From Chondrosia reniformis (lineage: Eukaryota; Porifera; Demospongiae; Chondrillida; Chondrillidae), in assembly GCA_947172415.1 (NCBI GenBank), contig OX359201.1, positions 5,568,501 to 5,632,500 of the forward strand: DNA of 64,000 bases, written 5' to 3'. The notes under the pieces are model-generated. The model was not told the origin of the DNA, ran no database searches, and saw only the letters and a list, made by a program, of their open reading frames with translations. The position numbers and the translations under genes were made by a program. Positions 7,476-56,200 of the stretch are shown in pieces (positions within the stretch are counted from its first letter, which is position 1; the number at the start of each line of letters is the position of its first letter).

Positions 7476-10400
7476 CTAAACATTGATAATCTCCCCGGAG
7501 CAGCAGGTACATGGAACCATTAGGTTGCCATGGTGACCAGTGCTAGTGTAGACAGGAGGTGAAAGCTTTTCCAGCACACATCTGAGTGTTTCCTTGGTAA
7601 CCATCTCGCTACTGTCCTCTTGGACCTGTAATGAAGGATCCTCCTCCGCTTGCCTGCCCTCTACCACAGGAGAGTGGAGAGGGTGGACGAATGCCTCCGC
7701 TGCTTGCTGTATCTGTGCCAGCTTGTCCTATAAAATAGCAAGTACATTTAGCACTATAAAATATATAGCAAGCTCATATAGAACTATAAAATATATAGCA
7801 AGTACATTTAGCACTATAAAAATTTACTAATATTAGGTACATATCTCTAAGATACTCCCCTATATATACATAGATACTACTATAAGGGGCACTCATCTAA
7901 TATTACACTGCACATACATAAGGTTGAGCCTGTTATGATTAATTAAATGTAGCACTGAGGAAAACCTTGAACAGATAATCTTCTTTGCTCAAAGACTGCT
8001 TCAGTGCAAATGCGTAAGTGTACATCATTAGTCACATGTATATTCTGTCAACAATTATCATCTGTCAATAAACTAGGACCAGTCAAGAACTAATCAACAA
8101 GGATGCAGTATCTGTCAACAGTTAGCCTATGACAATCCTCTAGCCTGTCAAGTCATTTACATTTATCTATTTATGTTTAGCCAACTGCTGACCTCTAATT
8201 CACTTCTCTCTTTAAGTAGCTTATCAATAAAACTGTCCTTTTCCTGTATTTTCTCCTTCAAAGCCTTCCTCTTGTTATGATACAGCTCTATGTATTCTGC
8301 AATCGTAGCATTCTCTCCTTCCAACTGCACAGTAATATACTCATATTCCTGAAGTCTGTCCACCAAATCAGCATTCTGTGACATCACCAATGTGAACCGA
8401 TCCTAAGGATGGGGACAGGGAGAAGGAGAGGAATAGATATGGAGATAGGGATGGGGATGGAGATAGGGATAGGGATAGGGATAAAGCAATAGCAACGGAA
8501 ACATACATGTAGGACAAACAATAGCTTGAAATATCAATATCAATACTTTAAACACATTTCATACAAACAAAGACATTTAAATCATTACTATGCAAAGACT
8601 ATAAGTGGGAATTTATGACGGCTTGAATATTCAAAAACGTAACTATATGTAACTTTCCAAACAAAATAATTTGAATAAAAAGATTCATTATGTATGTATA
8701 TAACTTTCAATATATTGTTGGGTACCTGAAGGGCTGTAAAGTTGCTAGACAATTCTAAAATTTGATCCTGAGTCACATGATTGTCATGTGATTCGTTAGC
8801 TTCTTCATGCAGTGAGAAGGAATGAAGCTGTTCTGTTAAGGTGTCCTTTTCGCTAGCCAGCTGTTGTATTTGCTGGCCCATATCTTCCCTTTCCTGGAGG
8901 ACAGTCTGCAGCTTGTGAACAAGGGAGTCTCTCTCAGCTTCAACATTCTTCAAACTCTGCTTCATTAGAGTATCTTCCTCAGTTAAGAGTCCATCCACTG
9001 TCTCCTGTCCACTCTTGCTGATTTCCGTGCTCCCATCAGCCTCCTCCTCCCTCTCCCTCCCATCCCCCGCCTGACGGTGTTTGGCCAGTTCTGTGCGTAA
9101 AACTTCAATCTGTTCATTCAGAAGAGACACCTGCTGTCCGTGTGTAGTAGATGCTTCCATCAGCTTCTTCCTACCATATTGTTCAGTCTCCAAATCACTT
9201 GCTAATTCCATATTCTTGTGTGACTACATGAAAACAGCAAAATTGAAATTAATATGACCAAATTTGAAACAATTTATTTGATGAAATGAAATAAATAGGC
9301 ACTTTATTTATAACAAAGAAATTAAGATCAAACTTGGAAAATTAAGCTGGTCAATATGAAACAGTAGCCATTTTTTGCTAAATCTGAACTCTATGCATGC
9401 ACTTGAGCTACAACATACAGAATTTCCACACTAATGTCCTCTATATTATGTTTATGGCCTCTTAGGTACCATTCTCATTTACCATAATTTAACCTCTTAA
9501 AGGTACCATTCTCATTTACCATAATTTAACCTCTTAAAGGTACCATTCTCATTTACCATAATTTAACCTCTTAAAGGTACCATTCTCATTTACCATAATT
9601 TAACCTCTTAAAGGTACCATTCTCATTTACCATAATTTAACCTCTTAAAGGTACCATTCTCATTTACCATAATTTAACCTCTTAAAGGTATACTTATATA
9701 CCCTTCTCATTTACCATAATTTAACCTCTTAAAGGTACCATTCTCATTTACCATAATTTAACCTCTTAAAGGTACCATTCTCATTTACCATAATTTAACC
9801 TCTTAAAGGTATACTTATATACCCTTCTCATTTACCATAATTTAACCTCTTAAAGGTACCATTCTCATTTACCATAATTTAAAGGTATACTTATATAGAT
9901 TTTTTTAATTTGGTTTAGCCAGACTGATGGTGGCCTACAAGCTCATTGGTTTAGATGGCCCCTCCCACAGGAAATGGGTTGGGCTACTTTAAACCAACTT
10001 GTTCTCACAGGAACATGTATGCACAGTAGTACAATTTAGATAAGGGTGAATAGACTGGGCCAATGTTGGGTAACTGTTTCTTTTTCCTTTTTTCTCTTTT
10101 CCTTCAACCAAATGGAACAGTCTGATAATCACAGACTACATCTCAAATTGGTTTACCTATATAGGCCTTCACTAGTCTCATACACATCCCCAACTTCTGC
10201 AAGAATGGCTGACACCTCGGAAGGTTGGGTCTGGGAACCATTTGCATATTCCTTGGCGATAATTGCGCAATATCACATGATGGGCACATGATGGACACAT
10301 GATGGGCACATGATGGGCACATGATGGACACATGATGGGCACATACATATGACACATGTGACTTGCTCGTTATTATGCAGTATCTACAATCTGATTGGAG

Positions 10401-13400
10401 TCCACGGATTGCCAGACTCTGCCAAGAAAAATGCACATAGTCCCCAGATCCATCTTCCACACCTTGGAAAATGGCGGCCAGAAGTTAGGGATGGGTATGA
10501 GACTAGGCCTTCACAGGTCTATGAGTCCGTTATAACTTTCAGTTTCCCCAGTCATGACCAGGATCTCTAGTCGGAGCCATTGGCATTGCTTATGTACATA
10601 CCATCCATGAATGTTTTATTTGAAATGTAATCAGAAATTGACTAAAAAGTACAGTATGTTCATAGGTACCATTTTAACAAATTCATCTTGTAGTTCAATC
10701 AGTTGAGCTTTAAGTTCCTTATTCTGAGCTACGGCACTGATGAATGAGAAACAATATATATAGGGTGAAATCTCATCAATTCAAACTAGTTTGAAACAAG
10801 AATGTATTCATGTGTATATATGTTCAAATTAACTAAGTTATTAGATAAAGTAATTCCTTAATATATTCTGTTATAGCAACAAATTTCAAAAGCATTTCAA
10901 AAGTATTTAAATATTTGAATTTTAAGTAATGATATCCAAATGCATATACATTTTTATAAAAAATTCTTCAAAAACCAAAGAAGGCCTAAATATGGAATCA
11001 GTAATTTATAATTACACTAAAATACTAGAACATTCTTTCCTTTACAGATAAAAAACAGCTGACTCACAAAAGTTATTAGATCATTGTTAAATGTAATGAT
11101 TACAACATTCTGACCTAAACTAACCCATCAAAATATGCAAATAGGTTTCTGGGTTACTTGGAGAGTGGATACATGTGACTAAGAATTAGAGATTGATCTG
11201 AGCTTTGTGCTAATAAGGGTAATTCCCTATATGGTTATGTCAGTACGTACGTAGCATACATAATATTACAGTACATGATATAATCAGAATTGTTCATGCA
11301 CAATGGCAACAAGCAGACTCACTGATGCTACAGGACTGATACTAGGAAGGTGCTACAGGACTGATACTGGGAAGGTGCTACAGGACTGATACTGGGAAGG
11401 TGCTACAGGACTGATACTGGGAAGGTGCTACAGGACTGATACTGGGAAGGTGCTACAGGACTGATACTGGGAAGGTGCTACAGGACTGATACTGGGAAGG
11501 TGCTACAGGACTGATACTGGGAAGGTGCTACAGGACTGATACTGGGAAGGTGCTACAGGACTGATACTGGGAAGGTGCTACAGGACTGATACTAGGAAGG
11601 TGCTGCAGGACTGATTGCACAATTATCTGAATGCAGTAAATGGCATTGTATACATTCTACTTCAAAGAAAGATGACTTCATTAATGCATTATGAACTAGG
11701 GAATATCATAAACCTGTTGCAATCAATATTTCTATCCATGCAAGTGCATGGGTTTCTAGATTACTTTGAAGATGACTGACTCTCCAAAATATAAAACCAT
11801 GAATGATCTAGACTTTGTGTCAATAATCCCGAAAGTTATGTCAGCATATTTAGATACTCAGATGGTTCACATACATACTGTATATAGTTATATGATATAT
11901 ATCATTTCGATATGACTATGATTAGTAGTATGACTATGGCTGGCCTTTCTCAACATGTAAAAATATGGTAATGACTTTATAATATGTAAATGAAGGATGT
12001 CATTCCCAGAAATAGCTGTCTGGCCTAGTGGAGAAGAGAAGTAGAAGGATAAAACTCTTGTATCCTCATCCAAAGCTCTCACTAGGTTTAGTTCCCTATA
12101 GGCCTTTAATCTTAAATAGATGTAGCATGTTGAACATTATGTGTTCGGTTATTCATGGTGCAGGATGTTTCTAAAGACTGACCGACTGAGAGCTTCCTTG
12201 TCATGGTGTACGGTCTCAAGGAGGGTCTTGTGGTCGATGGACTCACTGCTGAGTCTACTTAATTGCATCTCTAGATCAGCACATTTTGAAGTTAGCTGTG
12301 AAGTAACCCTATAATGGGGAAAGTACATTCAAATGACATGTAACACTTTCTGTCCATGTATAGCCAATTAACACTAGTAAATTGGTTTTACGTTTATTTC
12401 ATTTTTAGTTCATATAAGCAACTAATAAAGTTTTACACACGTACGAGAAGCTGAATTCCTGCTAATAAAATGTAGATATGATATACATAAATTAGTATGT
12501 GGTATTTTAGATAACACATCCATATATGTACAAAGGTCACCACAATGTGTATATCTGTATGGAGAGAAATTTTAGGAAATATGTGTATACGTATATGTAT
12601 GGAGAGAAATTTTAGGAAATATCAGAAGCTAGCCTGTATTCCACCTAATATGGAGTTGTTTAGGAATGATGATGGAAATAGATATACTGTATATATGGAA
12701 ATAAATTACTGTATATATGGAAATAGATACACTGTATGTAATAAAACCATGACAAGGCACACACATTCACAGTAATCAACAGTAATCACCTAACTTCATC
12801 AGGCACACAGGCAAGGTGTTACATCATATCAATCAGTTAAAATCTAAATATAACAGTTACACACATTAGGTCCCTGTTTGTAGTAAAGCTAATTCATTAG
12901 AACATTCCATAATGGGATTGAGGATATAAAGTTAAATCAGTTTCCTGTCAAAACCATCCCATGTATTGCTATTTAGCATAATTCAATTACTTACATTACA
13001 TGGATGTGTTATTACAAAGTCTCATTTCTTTAATGTATCACTTAAAATAGTTTAATTGGGCCAGTTTACGTATAATCAGTAAAGAGAGATATGGTTAGAT
13101 TTAGAGATGTAGATGAGCATTGCTGAATAGCACAACACCTCTTATAATATACATATATTCAACCTTCACTTTTGTTACTCTTTCACATAATAGAATATTT
13201 TGAAAGTAATGATGATTACATCACAGGAATTCTCTGAAAATCACTTTCCTTATTGAACCTTCCCCCTTGCAAAGCATTCCTTACTTGACTCTGTGTATAT
13301 TGGAGTTCAAATTACAGAGTGTAAGAGTTGAAAAGTTTTTACTGAATGCAAGCATGCCATTGAAATCTATGGGATATAGGAACTACCTCTGGCAGGTGAC

Positions 13401-35908: not shown

Positions 35909-37608
35909 ATGAACATACCCGAAGATCCTAGTTCTCAGTTCCACCAGGCCCAGGAGTCTACTGGACCTGCAGAGCTAGTTATCAACAGGCGGATCCAACT
36001 TGGTGATTCAGCTTCTAATGAGACTGAGCTGGTAGCAAATGTTAGCATCAACCTAACTAGAATCCCCAAGGATAAAAATTCAGAGAATTTAGATCAAGCG
36101 CCGACAAGACCGGAGACACCAAAGTATGATGAAAAATTACTGTCCAAAGTTAGGGCACTTGAAAGTATTATTAAATGTTTGCTTACGAATTTTTCTAATT
36201 TGAAATCGCAACTTTCACATTCTCTGCCCACTTTTTTTGACGGCACTTACCTGTGGAAGATCCCTCATGTAGAGAGACAACGAAAAGAAAACGTCTTTAT
36301 CGACAGTGCCCCTTTTTATACGCTCTATTGGCTGAGAGTGCAGATGATATGAGGAAGAGTCTCCAGTGCTTAGAAAGTTGGTGTGAGGAATGGTCCGTTG
36401 AGATAAATGTGGAAAAGAGTGCGGTAATGCACATGAGGAAAAGAGGGGTCAATAAGTGTGCTGATCATTTCAGTATTGGTGAGAAGGAGCTCCCATGGGT
36501 GTCTACTTACAAGTACTTGGGCTGTATGGTGGATGACAGTTTGGGCTGCTCAAGTATGGTGGAGCATCGGGTGGAAATGGGGTCTCAGGCATTAGGTGCT
36601 TGGCTGCGGAGGTGTCGGGAGTCAGTTGGGGAGGTGAACGGCAGGTCGTTTATGCAGTTGATGCAGTCACTGGTGGAATCCGTGTTGTTGTATGGGGCAG
36701 AGATCTGGGGTTGCCATCAGAAGTTAGATGGGTTGAACCAGCTACAGTTAAGGGCCCTGAGAATCTTCTTTGGGGTGGGTGTGCGCCACCCAAAGGTATC
36801 CCTGATGATGGAGGCTGATGCTTTCCCGGTGGTCTGGCTTGCAAGGGTGAGATGTGTTACATTCTGGTTGAAGGTTATGACGAATCCACTGTTTGAAGGA
36901 AGGATTTTGAGGGCAGCAGTGTTGGAGGCGGCTAAGAGTGGTGGAGGTTGCAGAATCTGAAAAAATACCTGGAATGTTTTGGTTGGGGTGGAATCGGTGC
37001 CAAGGAGGTAAAAGGGCTGTCATTTAGAGAAATCACAATGATGTTGCAGGCTTGTGCGAGAAGGAAGGTGGAAGATGAATGGGATGGTGAACTAGTCACA
37101 AAACCCAAGTTGGCCTTGTTGAAACTTTTGAAGGAGAAAGGTGGTGAATCTCGATGTTTAGATGTGGCAGATAAGGGTAAGAGACGGATGATGATGATGA
37201 TCAGGGGTGGGACAGCCCCACTTAGGATTGAATGTGGAAGGTGGAGGGGTCTCGAGAGAGCGGAGAGAACATGTGGGGAGTGTGATTTGGGGAAGGTGGA
37301 AGATGTACAACATTGGCTGCTGGAGTGCGAGAGATGGAAGGATGAGCGGGTGGACCTTTTTCAGTCTTTGTCACGGGTAGCACTGGGGTTTGATTTGATG
37401 ACTGATGATGATAAACTATTTGCCATTCTGGATCAAGGATGCAAGCATCACTCAATCCTTAAGATTATTTTGAAGATGTGGACTGCTAGATTTAGTTGAC
37501 CTTTTTGATTGATGACTTGATGTTTTGTTGAACTGATTTATTTGTCATGATGTATTGGTGTGTGCCTCATAGGACAGTCTGTCCTAGTGCTATGCATGTG
37601 GCACGTTA

Positions 37609-40269: not shown

Positions 40270-41107
40270 CTATATTTCGCAACTAAGTGAAACGGGTCGG
40301 ATTTAGTTTTGTTTGTACACATAGTAAACCGCATTGCACTTGTGCCTGGGTGAGTGATTCATAAAGCATGTGAAAATGTGAAACTAATATAACGAACATG
40401 CATAGACCTATTTACAATACTACTACCTTTAAATTTAGGCATACATTTATTTAAAGAGTTAGATCATGATGTATATAACTTTAGGCATGAAGCTAAACTA
40501 ACAATATTTTAAGCATAAATCTGAATCCAAGAAATAATTAACATTAATTGAATGCTCATGTTTATATAGTCAGTATTCAGTGGTTAAGTCTGAAACCAAA
40601 GTGGAGTAACCATTATCAAGAATAATTTATGAACATGTATAAATTTTATTTTCTATATACAAACATGGTCCCAACATGAAAATTCAATAATGGCGAGGTT
40701 ATATAGTTTGGGAAAATATTTCATTGTACATAAAACTTTCAGTCAAACTCACTCAAAGGCCTTTGCATTTAAAATACAGCCGATGAATAGGTAGATTTTG
40801 AAGTGACAAAAATGTGCTTTTTTCATCAATTAAATTTAAGTTTCAAGGATCAGTGATTGGCTATGCCATAAAACTATTACAAGACAACTCATTCAAATGA
40901 TAAGAGCATGCTACACAGTAATATAATTAGTACTGTCAAATGAACAACTTCATGAAAACAATCTGCATATATCATAATATTGTTATACAATCTGCATTTC
41001 ATAAAAGTTCAAGACACATGCAACAGCTCCTCCTAATCCTACAGAATGAAAATACATGAAATATAATGATACTATGTTTCATATCATAATAATTGACTTA
41101 ACTTGAG
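40270..41107. other. AT-rich gap between RPL28 promoter and GC-rich RNA candidate
   Basis: About 840 bp without a recognised gene, repeat or long ORF on either strand. Confidence 0.5.
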
Positions 41108-41762
41108 AAAAATAGATCTTGAAACTGGTCATGTACTTCTCTCAGCACAACTCAAGTAGAGTTGCCCCAGGGCACACCACGAGGAGGTGAAAGTACATCG
41201 TGCCCCACCCCACAGCGTTGACACTAACTATTGTGTAACAGAAGCTGTAACTGCGCAGTAATCTGCACTCATGGAGTTACTAGCCATGACATAGGAATCG
41301 ATCAGCGTTAGCCTCACTTTCAGCCTATGCCAAGTCCGACCCTCCCGAACCGCAAACTGCCCCGATGAGAATCAGTGTGTTGCCACACCTTTAACTCCTC
41401 AGGATCGGATGACATCCTTGAAGTGGGGACTGGCGAAACAACTACCCAAATCAGGTGTCGACAACCGACTTCAACTTACATAGTTACGTGATCACCTCAA
41501 TCTCCGTGCCGTCAGACCCCAGCCGAAGCCAGAGCTAGTGAGGACCAATCCCAAGCACCAACCCTCCCACTGAGTTCCTGATCAGATTGCATATCCAACG
41601 TGACACCAGGCCGCATTCTCGGCTCGCTGGCGGAGCCGAGGGGAATCCTGGGTCTACTTGTCTAGCGCTCCGAACAGGACTACTCGGGATAAGGAAAGAC
41701 CACCGTCAGGCACAGAAACTTTAGCAATCTCACGCGTCAAGTAAGCCACTGGGGGTAAACTG
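41108..41762 (-). ncRNA. Candidate structured non-coding RNA (unrecognised family)
   Basis: A sharply bounded stretch of about 640 bp, clearly richer in G+C than the AT-rich flanks, without a coding frame of note on either strand. Perfect short hairpins are visible: CAACTC/GAGTTG with a 5-nt loop (41148-41164), GGGCAC/GTGCCC closing 41170-41205, and CTCGGCTC/GAGCCGAG with a 7-nt loop (41618-41640). I place it on the minus strand because a TATAAAA (41785-41791), an E2F-like site (41806-41818) and an RPL28-like E-box/CRE pair (41841-41860) lie to its right in that orientation. A T5 run on the minus strand (41108-41112) could be a pol III terminator. I compared it by memory with rRNA, 7SL, 7SK, RNase P/MRP, U snRNAs and U3 and did not recognise it. 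A spliced lncRNA or snoRNA host is also possible. Confidence 0.45.
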
Positions 41763-41784
41763 AAATTTTTCACACCTCGCCATC

Positions 41785-41860
41785 TTTTATACGGCTGCAT
41801 TCAAATTTCCCGCGAAAACTCCTTATTAGGAATTTCCGGTCACGTGTTGAGATGACGTCA
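41785..41860 (-). promoter_or_regulatory. Compound promoter of the RNA candidate
   Basis: On the minus strand, moving downstream: the CRE/E-box pair (GATGACGTCA at 41851-41860 and CACGTG at 41841-41846 as read on the plus strand), a TTTCCCGCGAAAA E2F-type palindrome at 41806-41818, then TATAAAA at 41785-41791, about 25 bp before the presumed start. Transcription to the right (plus) is also possible. Confidence 0.5.
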
Positions 41861-43257
41861 GCAATAATTATAAGCTTCATACCAACTTTCGCAAGATACA
41901 AAATGGCTGACGAAGTGCTGCTAAATTGAAGAGGCGCGAGATCATCGCAGTCCTTAGTGAATTTGAGAACATTCCAAATTTGTGATGCCTAAAGAAGTCG
42001 TCTGTCGAATCTCTCTGAAGCTTTCTTAATCTCACGCTTACCAGCAGTTAAACGTTATTAAATCTGTAAAACGCTTAAACCGATCGCGATGAAGCAGAGA
42101 TTTGTAAATTGTGCTCAAAGAATTCTGTGACAGTTTATAGCAGTAATAAGATAGGTTTAGTGTCTACAGAGACAAAATGTGGGAAGAACTACAGTTACAG
42201 GCCAAAACCAGATGTCATCAGAATCGCAAGGACTTTTGGTGTGAGGACTAGACATCTTCTTGAACTTTCGAGTGGTGTCAGCATCTTCAATGTCACCTCT
42301 TTTTTAGGTTTATTATATATTAAATTTGCACTTAATTATGTTATTGTTTTTGTAATGCATTTGTTGTTTTTGTACTTATGTATTATATATATGGATCAGA
42401 ATTATATACATTTTTTCTACTGACTGTGTATACATTCTAATTTTATGATTCAGGAAAGAAATTATTCATAATTATAGATTAATGTATATGAATGACAACA
42501 GTATATATGTATACCTGTACGTGAAAGGCTAGGATCGCAAGATCAATTGCAATTTTTATGTCCATATTGTGTGCAGCCAAATTAGTGTTAACACTTTTAC
42601 ATTATATACAATATTAATTTTTGGTTCATATATATATATATATACAACCATCCTAGCTAGAAGTGTTGTGTGCATATTTGTATAATATAGATAATTAGCC
42701 TACATAGTATATGATGTGAACTTACTGCAATATTATATCAGAGAGTACGGTAGTACTCTCTATGTAGGGATGGTACGGGTTGTTTCGTTTTCCCCATACA
42801 TTGGTATAGGAGCGAAATTCCGAATTAGGCTGAAAATCGCCAAAACGAGACTATGTAGAGTTGAATATAGAACAAACATGCTATAAATTGGCCTTGAAGG
42901 CAAGCGACCGTGTATCGTTGGTAAACGAACGAACTTTGAAATCTCCCATTTTCGTTTTCTTCTTCTTCATCTTCTTCTTCTTCATCTTCTTCATCTTCTT
43001 CGCCCGCTGTAACTAAAAAACGAAATAAGCCTTCGGACTACTTCTTAATCGAAATTACTCTAAATTTTCCGAGCTGTATTCTTTTGTAGAAGCGAGAGCG
43101 ATAACGCTATTATTGAGTATGACAGTTTTCATGGCTCAAGAGTCAAGACCTCAATAAATTCGCCATTTTAATGACGTCATAATCAGTCGAAGATTGCAAA
43201 ACCAAAGTGGTTTAAAATACAACGAATTCCTAGCTTATGCTCCATAAAAAGTACAGA
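41861..43257. other. CpG-containing flank with no recognised gene
   Basis: Several short ATG frames on the plus strand (41900-42120) all stop quickly. A frame at 42109-42423 shows no family resemblance. A small perfect hairpin AGAGAGTAC/GTACTCTCT lies at about 42741-42762, a TCTTCT-rich tract at 42955-43003, and CRE-like TGACGTCA near 43172-43179. The word TGTAGGGATGG at about 42764 recurs inside the palindrome at 43258-43510. Confidence 0.4.
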
Positions 43258-53256: not shown

Positions 53257-56200
53257 ATGTTGAAAATCTTTCAAGCGAATTCTGGTTCCTTCATCCAGGT
53301 CAATGAAGACATTTTGCCCTCCCAAAAGTACGTTAACTTTCCAGTACCTACTGTATAAGTTACAGTATATGATAACTTAACTGTGTTCACGATACTTTAT
53401 TTGAGTTACTCTTACTCGGGCTTACCTAACTTTGTAAATTTAGTTAATTTACCATATCCGTTTGTCGCTATTCGGCTGCTGTTGTTTAGAATGCGACACC
53501 GCTACCTAGAAACATCTGTCTTGTGGTAGACTTGACAGGATTATGTCCTAAGCGTGTGAGTATATCAGTGACTCACCGAATTCTGAGAGTATTTTACGGT
53601 CGAGGGTATTTGTATAAACTTTACTCAATCTTTGCACATAAATTTGGTACTTTTGTTAATGTAACAACATAGTGCTAAGTGTATAGTAAAAACGGCTATT
53701 AAAGGCACATGGAAATCGTGCTCAGGTTTTGAAGAAAGAGACGAGAGTAAATGTTTCAAATGATGTCATCTTGATTTGTCGGCCATTTTAAATTATTGGT
53801 ATTACCATATAGGGTGTCAGAACTGTGGGAGGAGGTGAGTGTCAGTTTGGGGGTGGGGTCTCAGGATGTAATTCTAATGACTCTGGAGGGACAGCTGATG
53901 GACAAGTCGCAAATCATTGCTTCCTACACTTCTGGGACAGTAAGTCACATGACACTAAGTCACATGACAAGTCACATGACTGGGAAGCCTGTAAGACCTT
54001 CCAAACAATAAATAGCCAGTCCTATTTCATCAACCTTTTGAAATTATAGAATATATAGAATTATAGGCTTTTGCCTGTACTTCGTATATTATAAACAACT
54101 ACTATTGCAGTACAGTAAATGTCAAAGAGATTATTGAAGTAATGATATAAAACAAAAATCACAAAAACAATCAGCTATAAATTTAAAAGCAATAATTAGG
54201 TAGGTAGGTAGTCCACCTTTAACAGATTTAGGTATTATCTTCCTAGTGTATATACATATTATAAATATATACATAGTTACTATTGGATTGTTGAGCTTTT
54301 GTATTAGAAGTTACAATGTCATACTGAGTTAGATACGTAGGTATACAGGCAGTTAATCATACTGAGTTAGATACGTAGGTATACAGGCAGTTAATCATAC
54401 TGAGTTAGATACGAAGGTATACAGGCAGTTAATCATACTGAGTTAGATACGTAGGTATACAGGCAGTTAATCATACTGAGTTAGATACGAAGGTATACAG
54501 GCAGTTAATCATACTGAGTTAGATACGTAGGTATACAGGCAGTTAATCATACTGAGTTAGATACGTAGGTATACAGGCAGTTAATCATACTGAGTTAGAT
54601 GCGAAGGTATACAGGCAGTTAATCATACTGAGTTAGATACGAAGGTATACAGGCAGTTAATCATACTGAGTTAGATACGAAGGTATACAGGCAGTTAATC
54701 ATACTGAATTAGATACGAAGGTATACAGGCAGTTAATCATACTGAGTTAGATACGTAGGTATACAGGCAGTTAATCATACTGAGTTAGATACGTAGGTAT
54801 ACAGGCAGTTAATCATACTGAATTAGATACGAAGGTATACAGGCAGTTAATCATACTGAGTTAGATATGTAGGTATACAGGCAGTTAATCATACTGAGTT
54901 AGATACGAAGGTATACAGGCAGTTAATCATACTGAGTTAGATACGAAGGTATACAGGCAGTTAATCATACTGAGTTAGATAAGGTATACAGGCAGTTAAT
55001 CATACTGAGTTAGATACGAAGGTATACAGGCAGTTAATCATACTGAATTAGATACGAAGGTATACAGGCAGTTAATCATACTGAGTTAGATACGAAGGTA
55101 TACAGGCAGTTAATTAATCAGTGACAGATCTAGACTAAACTAATATGGCTGTGACTATCAATATTGATGTTAATGGGATTTATGTAAGGAAATAATGATA
55201 TGTGATATGGATTCCTTTGTACATTGTTGTACTGATATATGTATACTGAAAAATTGATTTTGGTGATAAATTATCAATTTGGTTTTAATTACTTGGACAT
55301 CCATATCAAAACAGTTGAGTTGCTGAAGTCAAAGTTATCAATAGCTTACATGAGAGCCAAGGATTCACAGAAGATCAAGATAGAGAAAAGACAAAGACTC
55401 CCAGGATCACTGATGAAGGGTGGAATTCCCAGAAACGGCTGTCTGACCCAGTGGAGAAGAAGATGAAAGAAGGGAAAAGAAGGAAGAAAAGACTCCTGTA
55501 TCCTCATCCAAAAGCTCTCTTCAGGTTTAGTTCCCCTATAGGCTCTTTACAGAATAGGCATATAGCATGTAGGAAAATGGTATCTTAGATTTTTCATGAA
55601 CATAACAAAATTATATTTATACGTATGTATGTGTGTATGTAGTGGCCATTTTCTCCTCTTTCATCTCTTTCTATAAAACCATCTGCATTTGTGTGTGCTA
55701 TTTATGTCACACCCCTTCCCCTTCCCCGCCCCTTTGCAGGAATCTAAACCCATTCTTGTATTTGTCCGTCCATGGTTACACTCAACATCACCTCCTCGTT
55801 TAAAGGCAGGCAACTTTCAAGGTACGTACATACGTACGTATAATATAATCTCATCCACATATCATAACGTGCACACTTTCACTGCCCATCAATGTACACA
55901 CAGCTAAACCTGTGTGAACCAGTTCTGTGAGTTGCACCCTTCTCTTCATCAACAGATATCCTCCGACACAAAAGCATAGATGAAGTGTGTAAAAAGCCTC
56001 ACGCATTATTGCAGGTTATTCAGGTGCGTTTGAAGCCAGTAAATCTACATATATGTCTCCCATGTAGGAATTATTAACAGTCCGTATTAATCTGTCTTTA
56101 AGTGCCATTGCAGTGATTTTATCATTTGATTACTTTTATGAAGGAATTTGAGCGACAGGGTGAGAGTGTGACTGACTATTATGACACACTACTAAAGGGA

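Follow-up and report, generated by a model that had tools for sequence, protein, structure and literature searches.

Multicopy genes for a predicted structured RNA in the kidney sponge Chondrosia reniformis appear to end in an HDV-like ribozyme

Replication-dependent histone genes are multicopy, carry E2F-like sites and form a 3' end without a poly(A) tail by stem-loop/U7 processing, and the genes for 7SK, RNase P and the U snRNAs encode structured RNAs behind a TATA box. The fold of the HDV-like ribozyme is likewise already known. The available portions of PMC8256844 and PMC4035085 place the HDV-like ribozymes of retroelements at the 5' end of the element, where they free what lies downstream, and the available portion of PMC8256844 describes the CPEB3 ribozyme as single, intronic and located within a coding gene.

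The sponge ribozymes reported here have the same nested double-pseudoknot, UCCUCGU-type L3 and J4/2 C as those of the retroelements (R2, L1Tc/SIDER and drz-agam) and are also multicopy, but they follow a conserved RNA, at its 3' edge, and would release what precedes them. As with CPEB3, a cellular HDV-like ribozyme is found in an animal genome, in this case in hundreds of dedicated non-coding loci. The ribozymes of one sponge family, family 3, pass the Rfam model RF02682 (HDV-F-prausnitzii), whereas those of families 1 and 2 match RF02682 and RF00094 (HDV_ribozyme) below both cut-offs; unlike the members of these models, the sponge ribozymes are linked to predicted non-coding RNA genes. Histone genes resemble the sponge loci only in how they would work: both are multicopy, with E2F-like sites and a non-poly(A) end, but the sponge loci are non-coding and their end is predicted from self-cleavage. 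In contrast to 7SK, RNase P and the U snRNAs, the sponge RNA body has no Rfam match and a sister family has an intron. We know of no precedent for a multicopy class of cellular RNA genes with self-cleaved 3' ends. The available parts of the literature on HDV-like or self-cleaving ribozymes in sponges, taken outside subscription journals and preprints, do not describe ribozyme-ended non-coding RNA genes, and neither do the accessible portions of PMC7761336 and PMC13188248. Within the same scope nothing was found that joins the HDV ribozyme to Amphimedon, and the literature on Chondrosia non-coding RNA, judging by its titles, concerns other matters.

A G+C island with a candidate minus-strand RNA gene

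The window, by which we mean the whole 64-kb stretch analysed, is C13:5568501-5632500 on chromosome 13 of C. reniformis, whose genome comprises 117.4 Mb in 15 contigs. Its strongest G+C island lies at 41108-41762, where the original prediction had noticed an abrupt rise in G+C. Indeed, G+C is 0.521 in the island compared with 0.377 in the whole window and 0.286 in the 500 bp below the island, and among 12,669 sliding 655-bp segments (step 5) only 13 reach 0.521, all of them beginning at 41101-41166, over the island itself. The island was also said to hold no useful ORF, and we find that its longest stop-to-stop ORF has 62 aa and the longest ATG ORF on its minus strand 34 aa; with no long ORF, a reading as a protein-coding exon was dropped. 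All three hairpins that had been pointed out are present in the sequence. Those at 41170-41205 and 41148-41164 are P1+P3 and P4, respectively, of the HDV-like ribozyme described below, and the third (CUCGGCUCCGCCAGCGAGCCGAG, 41618-41640, minus strand) lies inside the RNA body. The folding energy of the minus strand has a z of -2.75, with none of 20 shuffles equally stable, and that of the plus strand a z of -1.49, with 1 of 20 equally stable.

On the minus strand, a TATA box (TATAAAA, 41791-41785) stands 30 nt before the A at 41761, the predicted start, of the initiator-like TTCAGTT at 41758-41764. Upstream of these are the E2F-like motif CGCGGGAAA (41806-41814, minus strand), the E-box CACGTG (41841-41846) and the CRE TGACGTCA (41853-41860); we take the motifs to be what these names (initiator, CRE, E-box, E2F-like) imply. 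Among the 72 aligned family 1 copies described below, 69 could be scored for the promoter, L041, L047 and L050 being unanchored, and TATAAAA is found in 59, TCAGT in 60, the CRE in 64, the E-box in 65 and the E2F-like pattern in 47. The T5 run noted at the far end is there as well, at 41112-41108 of the minus strand (+651), and no other stretch of at least four T occurs on that strand within the 655 bp. It lies 3' of the ribozyme and might serve as a backup stop; such runs are common but not universal, since 54 of 69 copies have one within ~45 nt 3' of the ribozyme and 15 have none there.

A search of the whole 64-kb window against Rfam gave no match at gathering scores, leaving the RNA family as unrecognised as before, and a tRNA/tmRNA search found none. 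With E values up to 10, the region 40900-42100 matched three HDV-type models and two others, HtrA thermometer (E 6) and SBWMV2 (E 8.5), which we consider to be at chance level. As for RNase P RNA (RF00009), its sole genome match is elsewhere, at C6:7092698-7092995 (161 bits), and 7SK (RF00100) has no match in the genome, but none in the control genomes either. What stands of the predicted structured-RNA gene is a minus-strand gene of no recognised family that would start near 41760 behind a TATA box; the class to which it had been assigned is not supported.

Copies of the island and an intron-bearing sister family

A DNA search shows that the entire island recurs across the genome: among 436 candidates, the 40 copies that were scored have 98-100% identity. 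For this family, family 1, a 48-base upstream probe found 71 places, compared with 0 for the reversed control, and a probe from the 3' end found ~81 dispersed copies, on all 14 chromosomes. In 21 copies with flanks, conservation expressed as 25-column means is 0.98-1.00 over +1 to +625 and 0.94 over +626 to +650; upstream it is 0.70-0.94 at -149 to 0, 0.54-0.69 at -349 to -150 and lower further out. We also aligned 72 copies, leaving out one short second match in L031. Most columns from +50 to +625 have at most one deviating row, and the predicted mature RNA body (41207-41761, minus strand; ~555 nt between the initiator A and the predicted cut) is near-invariant. Deviations climb from 7 of 72 rows at +632 to 17 of 72 at +640 and then remain high, a limit that coincides with the end of ribozyme P2 at +632. 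The flanks gradually lose similarity, which extends no further than -863 and +1028 and has no common ends. A constant core amid old, drifting flanks suggests that the core is under selection, is homogenised by gene conversion, or both.

Two observations concern possible splice signals in this family. A stretch 3' of the ribozyme at 41013-41062 (ATTTTCATTCTGTAGGATTAGGAGG, minus strand) is partly conserved in the 21 copies (25-column means 0.85 and 0.64) and resembles a splice acceptor. In L104 (C4:1883900-1885150), a divergent relative in which P1 is damaged, an intron-acceptor-like TTACTTTTCTAG stands ahead of GCATAGGC; this locus may show that family 1 once had an intron, or may be a decayed copy.

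A genome search with RF00094 gave 81 matches, none of them above the cut-off, and sub-cut-off matches were also seen in 4 of 14 control genomes. Five of the six RF00094 places examined (L080-L084) belong to a second family that shares this ribozyme and of which a 3'-part probe counts 336 copies and a 5'-half probe 319. In these loci, two exons separated by a variable AT-rich insert lie between a TATA box and the ribozyme, and the flank diverges beyond the latter. The insert is 70-125 nt long, with the donor TCAG/GTT and acceptors such as TTCTTTTCTTATAG, and GT...AG intron signals are present in 33 of the 34 loci examined. Across the 29 with full sequences, identity is 92% in the exons and 62% in the introns. 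The predicted spliced RNA, measured between the initiator A and the cut, has 557-582 nt (median 575) in the 27 of 29 copies that were measurable from the initiator, compared with 555 nt in family 1. Furthermore, the two families have in common a block of 45 columns (41331-41374, minus strand, in the window copy) with a local alignment score of 48, against 32 for the best of 500 dinucleotide shuffles, and because of this block we regard them as paralogues.

The sixth RF00094 place is different. Its match (L085:237-304; C10:1258136-1258203, minus strand) has 25 bits and lies outside all three families, and nothing matched at E values of 1 or less in a separate scan of L085. A SAM_alpha match at L086:672-774 (24.2 bits, gathering 36), upstream of the gene in L086, was taken as chance.

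The U2 snRNA has six matches in the genome, all outside the locus, and each of the three examined has ACCACAA upstream. None of the 10 family 1 and family 2 promoters that we compared has this element, U2 being the sole snRNA in the comparison. Together with the introns of family 2, this favours families 1 and 2 being pol II genes.

Anatomy and covariation of the HDV-like ribozyme

A complete HDV-like nested double-pseudoknot occupies 41206-41131 of the minus strand (+557 to +632). It matches RF02682 with 26.6 bits, RF00094 with 25.0 and RF01787 with 18.8, all below gathering scores. Read by hand, however, every part of an HDV ribozyme is found: a P1 of 7 bp that starts with a G-U pair at the cut, a P2 of 8-9 bp, a P3 of 3 bp, the loop UCCUCGU, P1.1, P4 and a J4/2 with its C. 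The motif therefore seems to be an HDV-like ribozyme, predicted to cleave itself between 41207 and 41206. A ribozyme core probe found 430 places in the genome and none with the reversed control, a number close to the 81 plus 336 copies of families 1 and 2.

We assessed the pairing in 59 distinct ribozymes of families 1 and 2 (58 distinct forms and L109). The column of the catalytic C in J4/2 is invariant (59/59), and 94.7% of 1645 cells are paired, compared with 35-48% in slid controls, a comparison that favours a structure read from the very sequences tested. Against shuffles, which can be inflated by the relatedness of the copies and are less firm than the slid control, 110 cells are changed on both sides compared with a mean of 45.4, and the covariation is 0.206 compared with 0.123; none of 500 shuffles reaches either value. 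Two of the five pair measures are not above the shuffles, namely the number of pairs with a double change (178/500) and the pair types (500/500). Double changes are absent from P1, P3 and P1.1, and the covariation sits in P4 and P2. Indeed, the two common polymorphisms of family 1, at +598 (33/72) and +601 (36/72), are both in P4 and keep its pairing. Some positions do lose pairing: of the 59 ribozymes, 38 lack the outer P2 pair (columns 9/89) and 21 the P4 pair 47/68, and P1 is damaged in a few copies (L104, L123).

The RNA body was folded from two sets, the 62 family 1 rows left once identical and gappy ones had been taken out of the 72, and 28 distinct rows of the 29 in family 2. In the family 1 consensus fold, a predicted terminal stem joins the 5' start (ACCCCCAGUG, 41747-41756, minus strand) to bases adjoining the cut (CGCUGUGGGGU, 41207-41217, minus strand). 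The consensus fold of family 2 has a different terminal stem, CAACUCUG/CAGAGUUG, with a mismatch in L087 and without its outer extension in L094, L097 and L099. A long-range pair of family 1, 93/178, occurs as G-C in 47 rows and as A-U in another 14 of the 62; the other double changes in the body of this family are mostly those of single rows. Each family has six pairs with double changes (19 and 22 cells) compared with 0-3 pairs (0-5 cells) in slid controls, although the folds were derived from the same alignments that were used for testing, which favours them. Compensatory changes, which the original prediction had proposed as a check, are thus found between copies and between families.

Predicted 3'-end formation, competing readings and a third family

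We hypothesize that these loci are pol II genes for an abundant structured non-coding RNA whose 3' ends are made by self-cleavage of the ribozyme. We think this likely, with a reservation because the 3' limit of conservation falls near the ribozyme's end without matching it exactly. As read from the DNA, the TATA/initiator promoter would start a minus-strand transcript near 41761, and the transcript of family 2 would be spliced. The RNA would fold so that its two ends meet in the terminal stem, giving a compact molecule with paired ends. The ribozyme (+557 to +632), once transcribed, would cut just 5' of itself and release an RNA of ~555 nt with a 2',3'-cyclic phosphate and without a poly(A) tail. 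The many copies could provide a large dose, like rRNA or histone genes, and because of the E2F-like sites the RNA might perhaps be made in dividing cells. Its copy number, its structure and the lack of an ORF lead us to favour, with low confidence, a role as the scaffold of an abundant ribonucleoprotein.

In the main competing reading, the hundreds of dispersed copies on both strands are those of a non-autonomous mobile element, resembling a SINE or a retrozyme or else a DNA unit. It would bear an HDV-like ribozyme, spread by itself and make an RNA without a host role. The homology spans no more than ~1.9 kb, which would suit a mobile unit, and HDV-like ribozymes are known from retroelements in the available portions of PMC8256844 and PMC4035085. 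However, the layout is not that of retroelements with a 5' ribozyme, since here the ribozyme is at the 3' edge with conserved sequence upstream of it and drifting sequence downstream. The TATA box is kept though it lies outside the transcript, and the intron of family 2 is kept as well. Upstream and 3' probes count similar numbers of places (71 and 81 in family 1, 319 and 336 in family 2), which indicates that few copies are truncated, and the flank similarity of family 1 fades without common ends. We therefore regard a mobile element as an unlikely source of these copies.

The original prediction favoured a pol III type 3 gene, with a promoter like that of 7SK or RNase P, that stops at the T5 run; on this reading the ribozyme-like fold would be a structural domain only. 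Conservation nevertheless breaks at +632 to +640, ahead of the T run at +651. The TATA box at -30 would suit pol III, as would the lack of a T4 run within the first 650 nt and the run of at least four T that 54 of the 69 copies carry behind the ribozyme, but the other 15 lack such a run, and 650 nt is long for such transcripts. The promoter motif set, the GT...AG intron of the sister family (33/34 loci) and the lack of the ACCACAA element of the three U2 promoters also speak against pol III, which we consider quite improbable. Similarly, the 3' end at 41108 that goes with it is not borne out, and the best placed 3' end is the predicted self-cleavage at 41207/41206. We give hardly any credence to a viroid- or delta-like replicating RNA with DNA copies scattered in the genome: it would explain a compact folded RNA that carries an HDV-like ribozyme, but the ribozyme matches are confined to one strand, the loci have promoter motifs and introns of their own, and an exact 23-base ribozyme probe, which detects close relatives only, has 0 matches in viral contigs. 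Bacterial and archaeal genomes, searched with the same probe, gave 0 matches as well.

If these loci are indeed pol II genes whose 3' ends are made by self-cleavage, this would be a further route for pol II genes to finish an RNA, beside cleavage/polyadenylation and snRNA- or histone-type processing, and a host role for HDV-like ribozymes outside mobile elements. It would also point to an abundant RNA particle in an early-branching animal, whose RNAs poly(A)-selected transcriptomes would miss.

RF02682 gives 61 further matches in the genome, 59 of which are above the gathering score; among the 14 control genomes, 8 have sub-cut-off matches and none has a match above the cut-off. These define a third family, with a TATA box of its own, present at 80 places by probe. 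In the three pieces from which its layout was read (L129, C4:8165700-8166380; L130, C14:1201340-1201690; L131, C1:1386080-1386360), TATAAATA is followed by ~286 nt of conserved RNA and then by the ribozyme, which scores 47.3 bits in L129 and 44.5 in L130 (cut-off 44). Similarity drops just upstream of the TATA box (L129 compared with L131) and just after the ribozyme (L129 compared with L130). Outside P3 and its loop, family 3 showed no clear similarity to the other two families, with best local scores of 15 and 17 taken without shuffles. An apparently unrelated RNA with the same layout is the best argument for the ribozyme as a 3'-end module. On balance we lean towards the HDV-like ribozyme being a general 3'-end signal in this sponge, which would replace poly(A)/snRNA-type processing in at least three families of abundant structural non-coding RNAs that lie outside Rfam, with ~500 copies by probes (81 + 336 + 80).

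Elsewhere in the window, a tandem array of a 38-bp unit repeated 21 times with 96% matches lies at 54319-55114, and there are further arrays, for example at 11326-11615 (25 bp x 11.6) and 9464-9882. At 36501-37500, the GC skew is +0.42 to +0.46 and G+C is raised to 0.46-0.52 over 1 kb.
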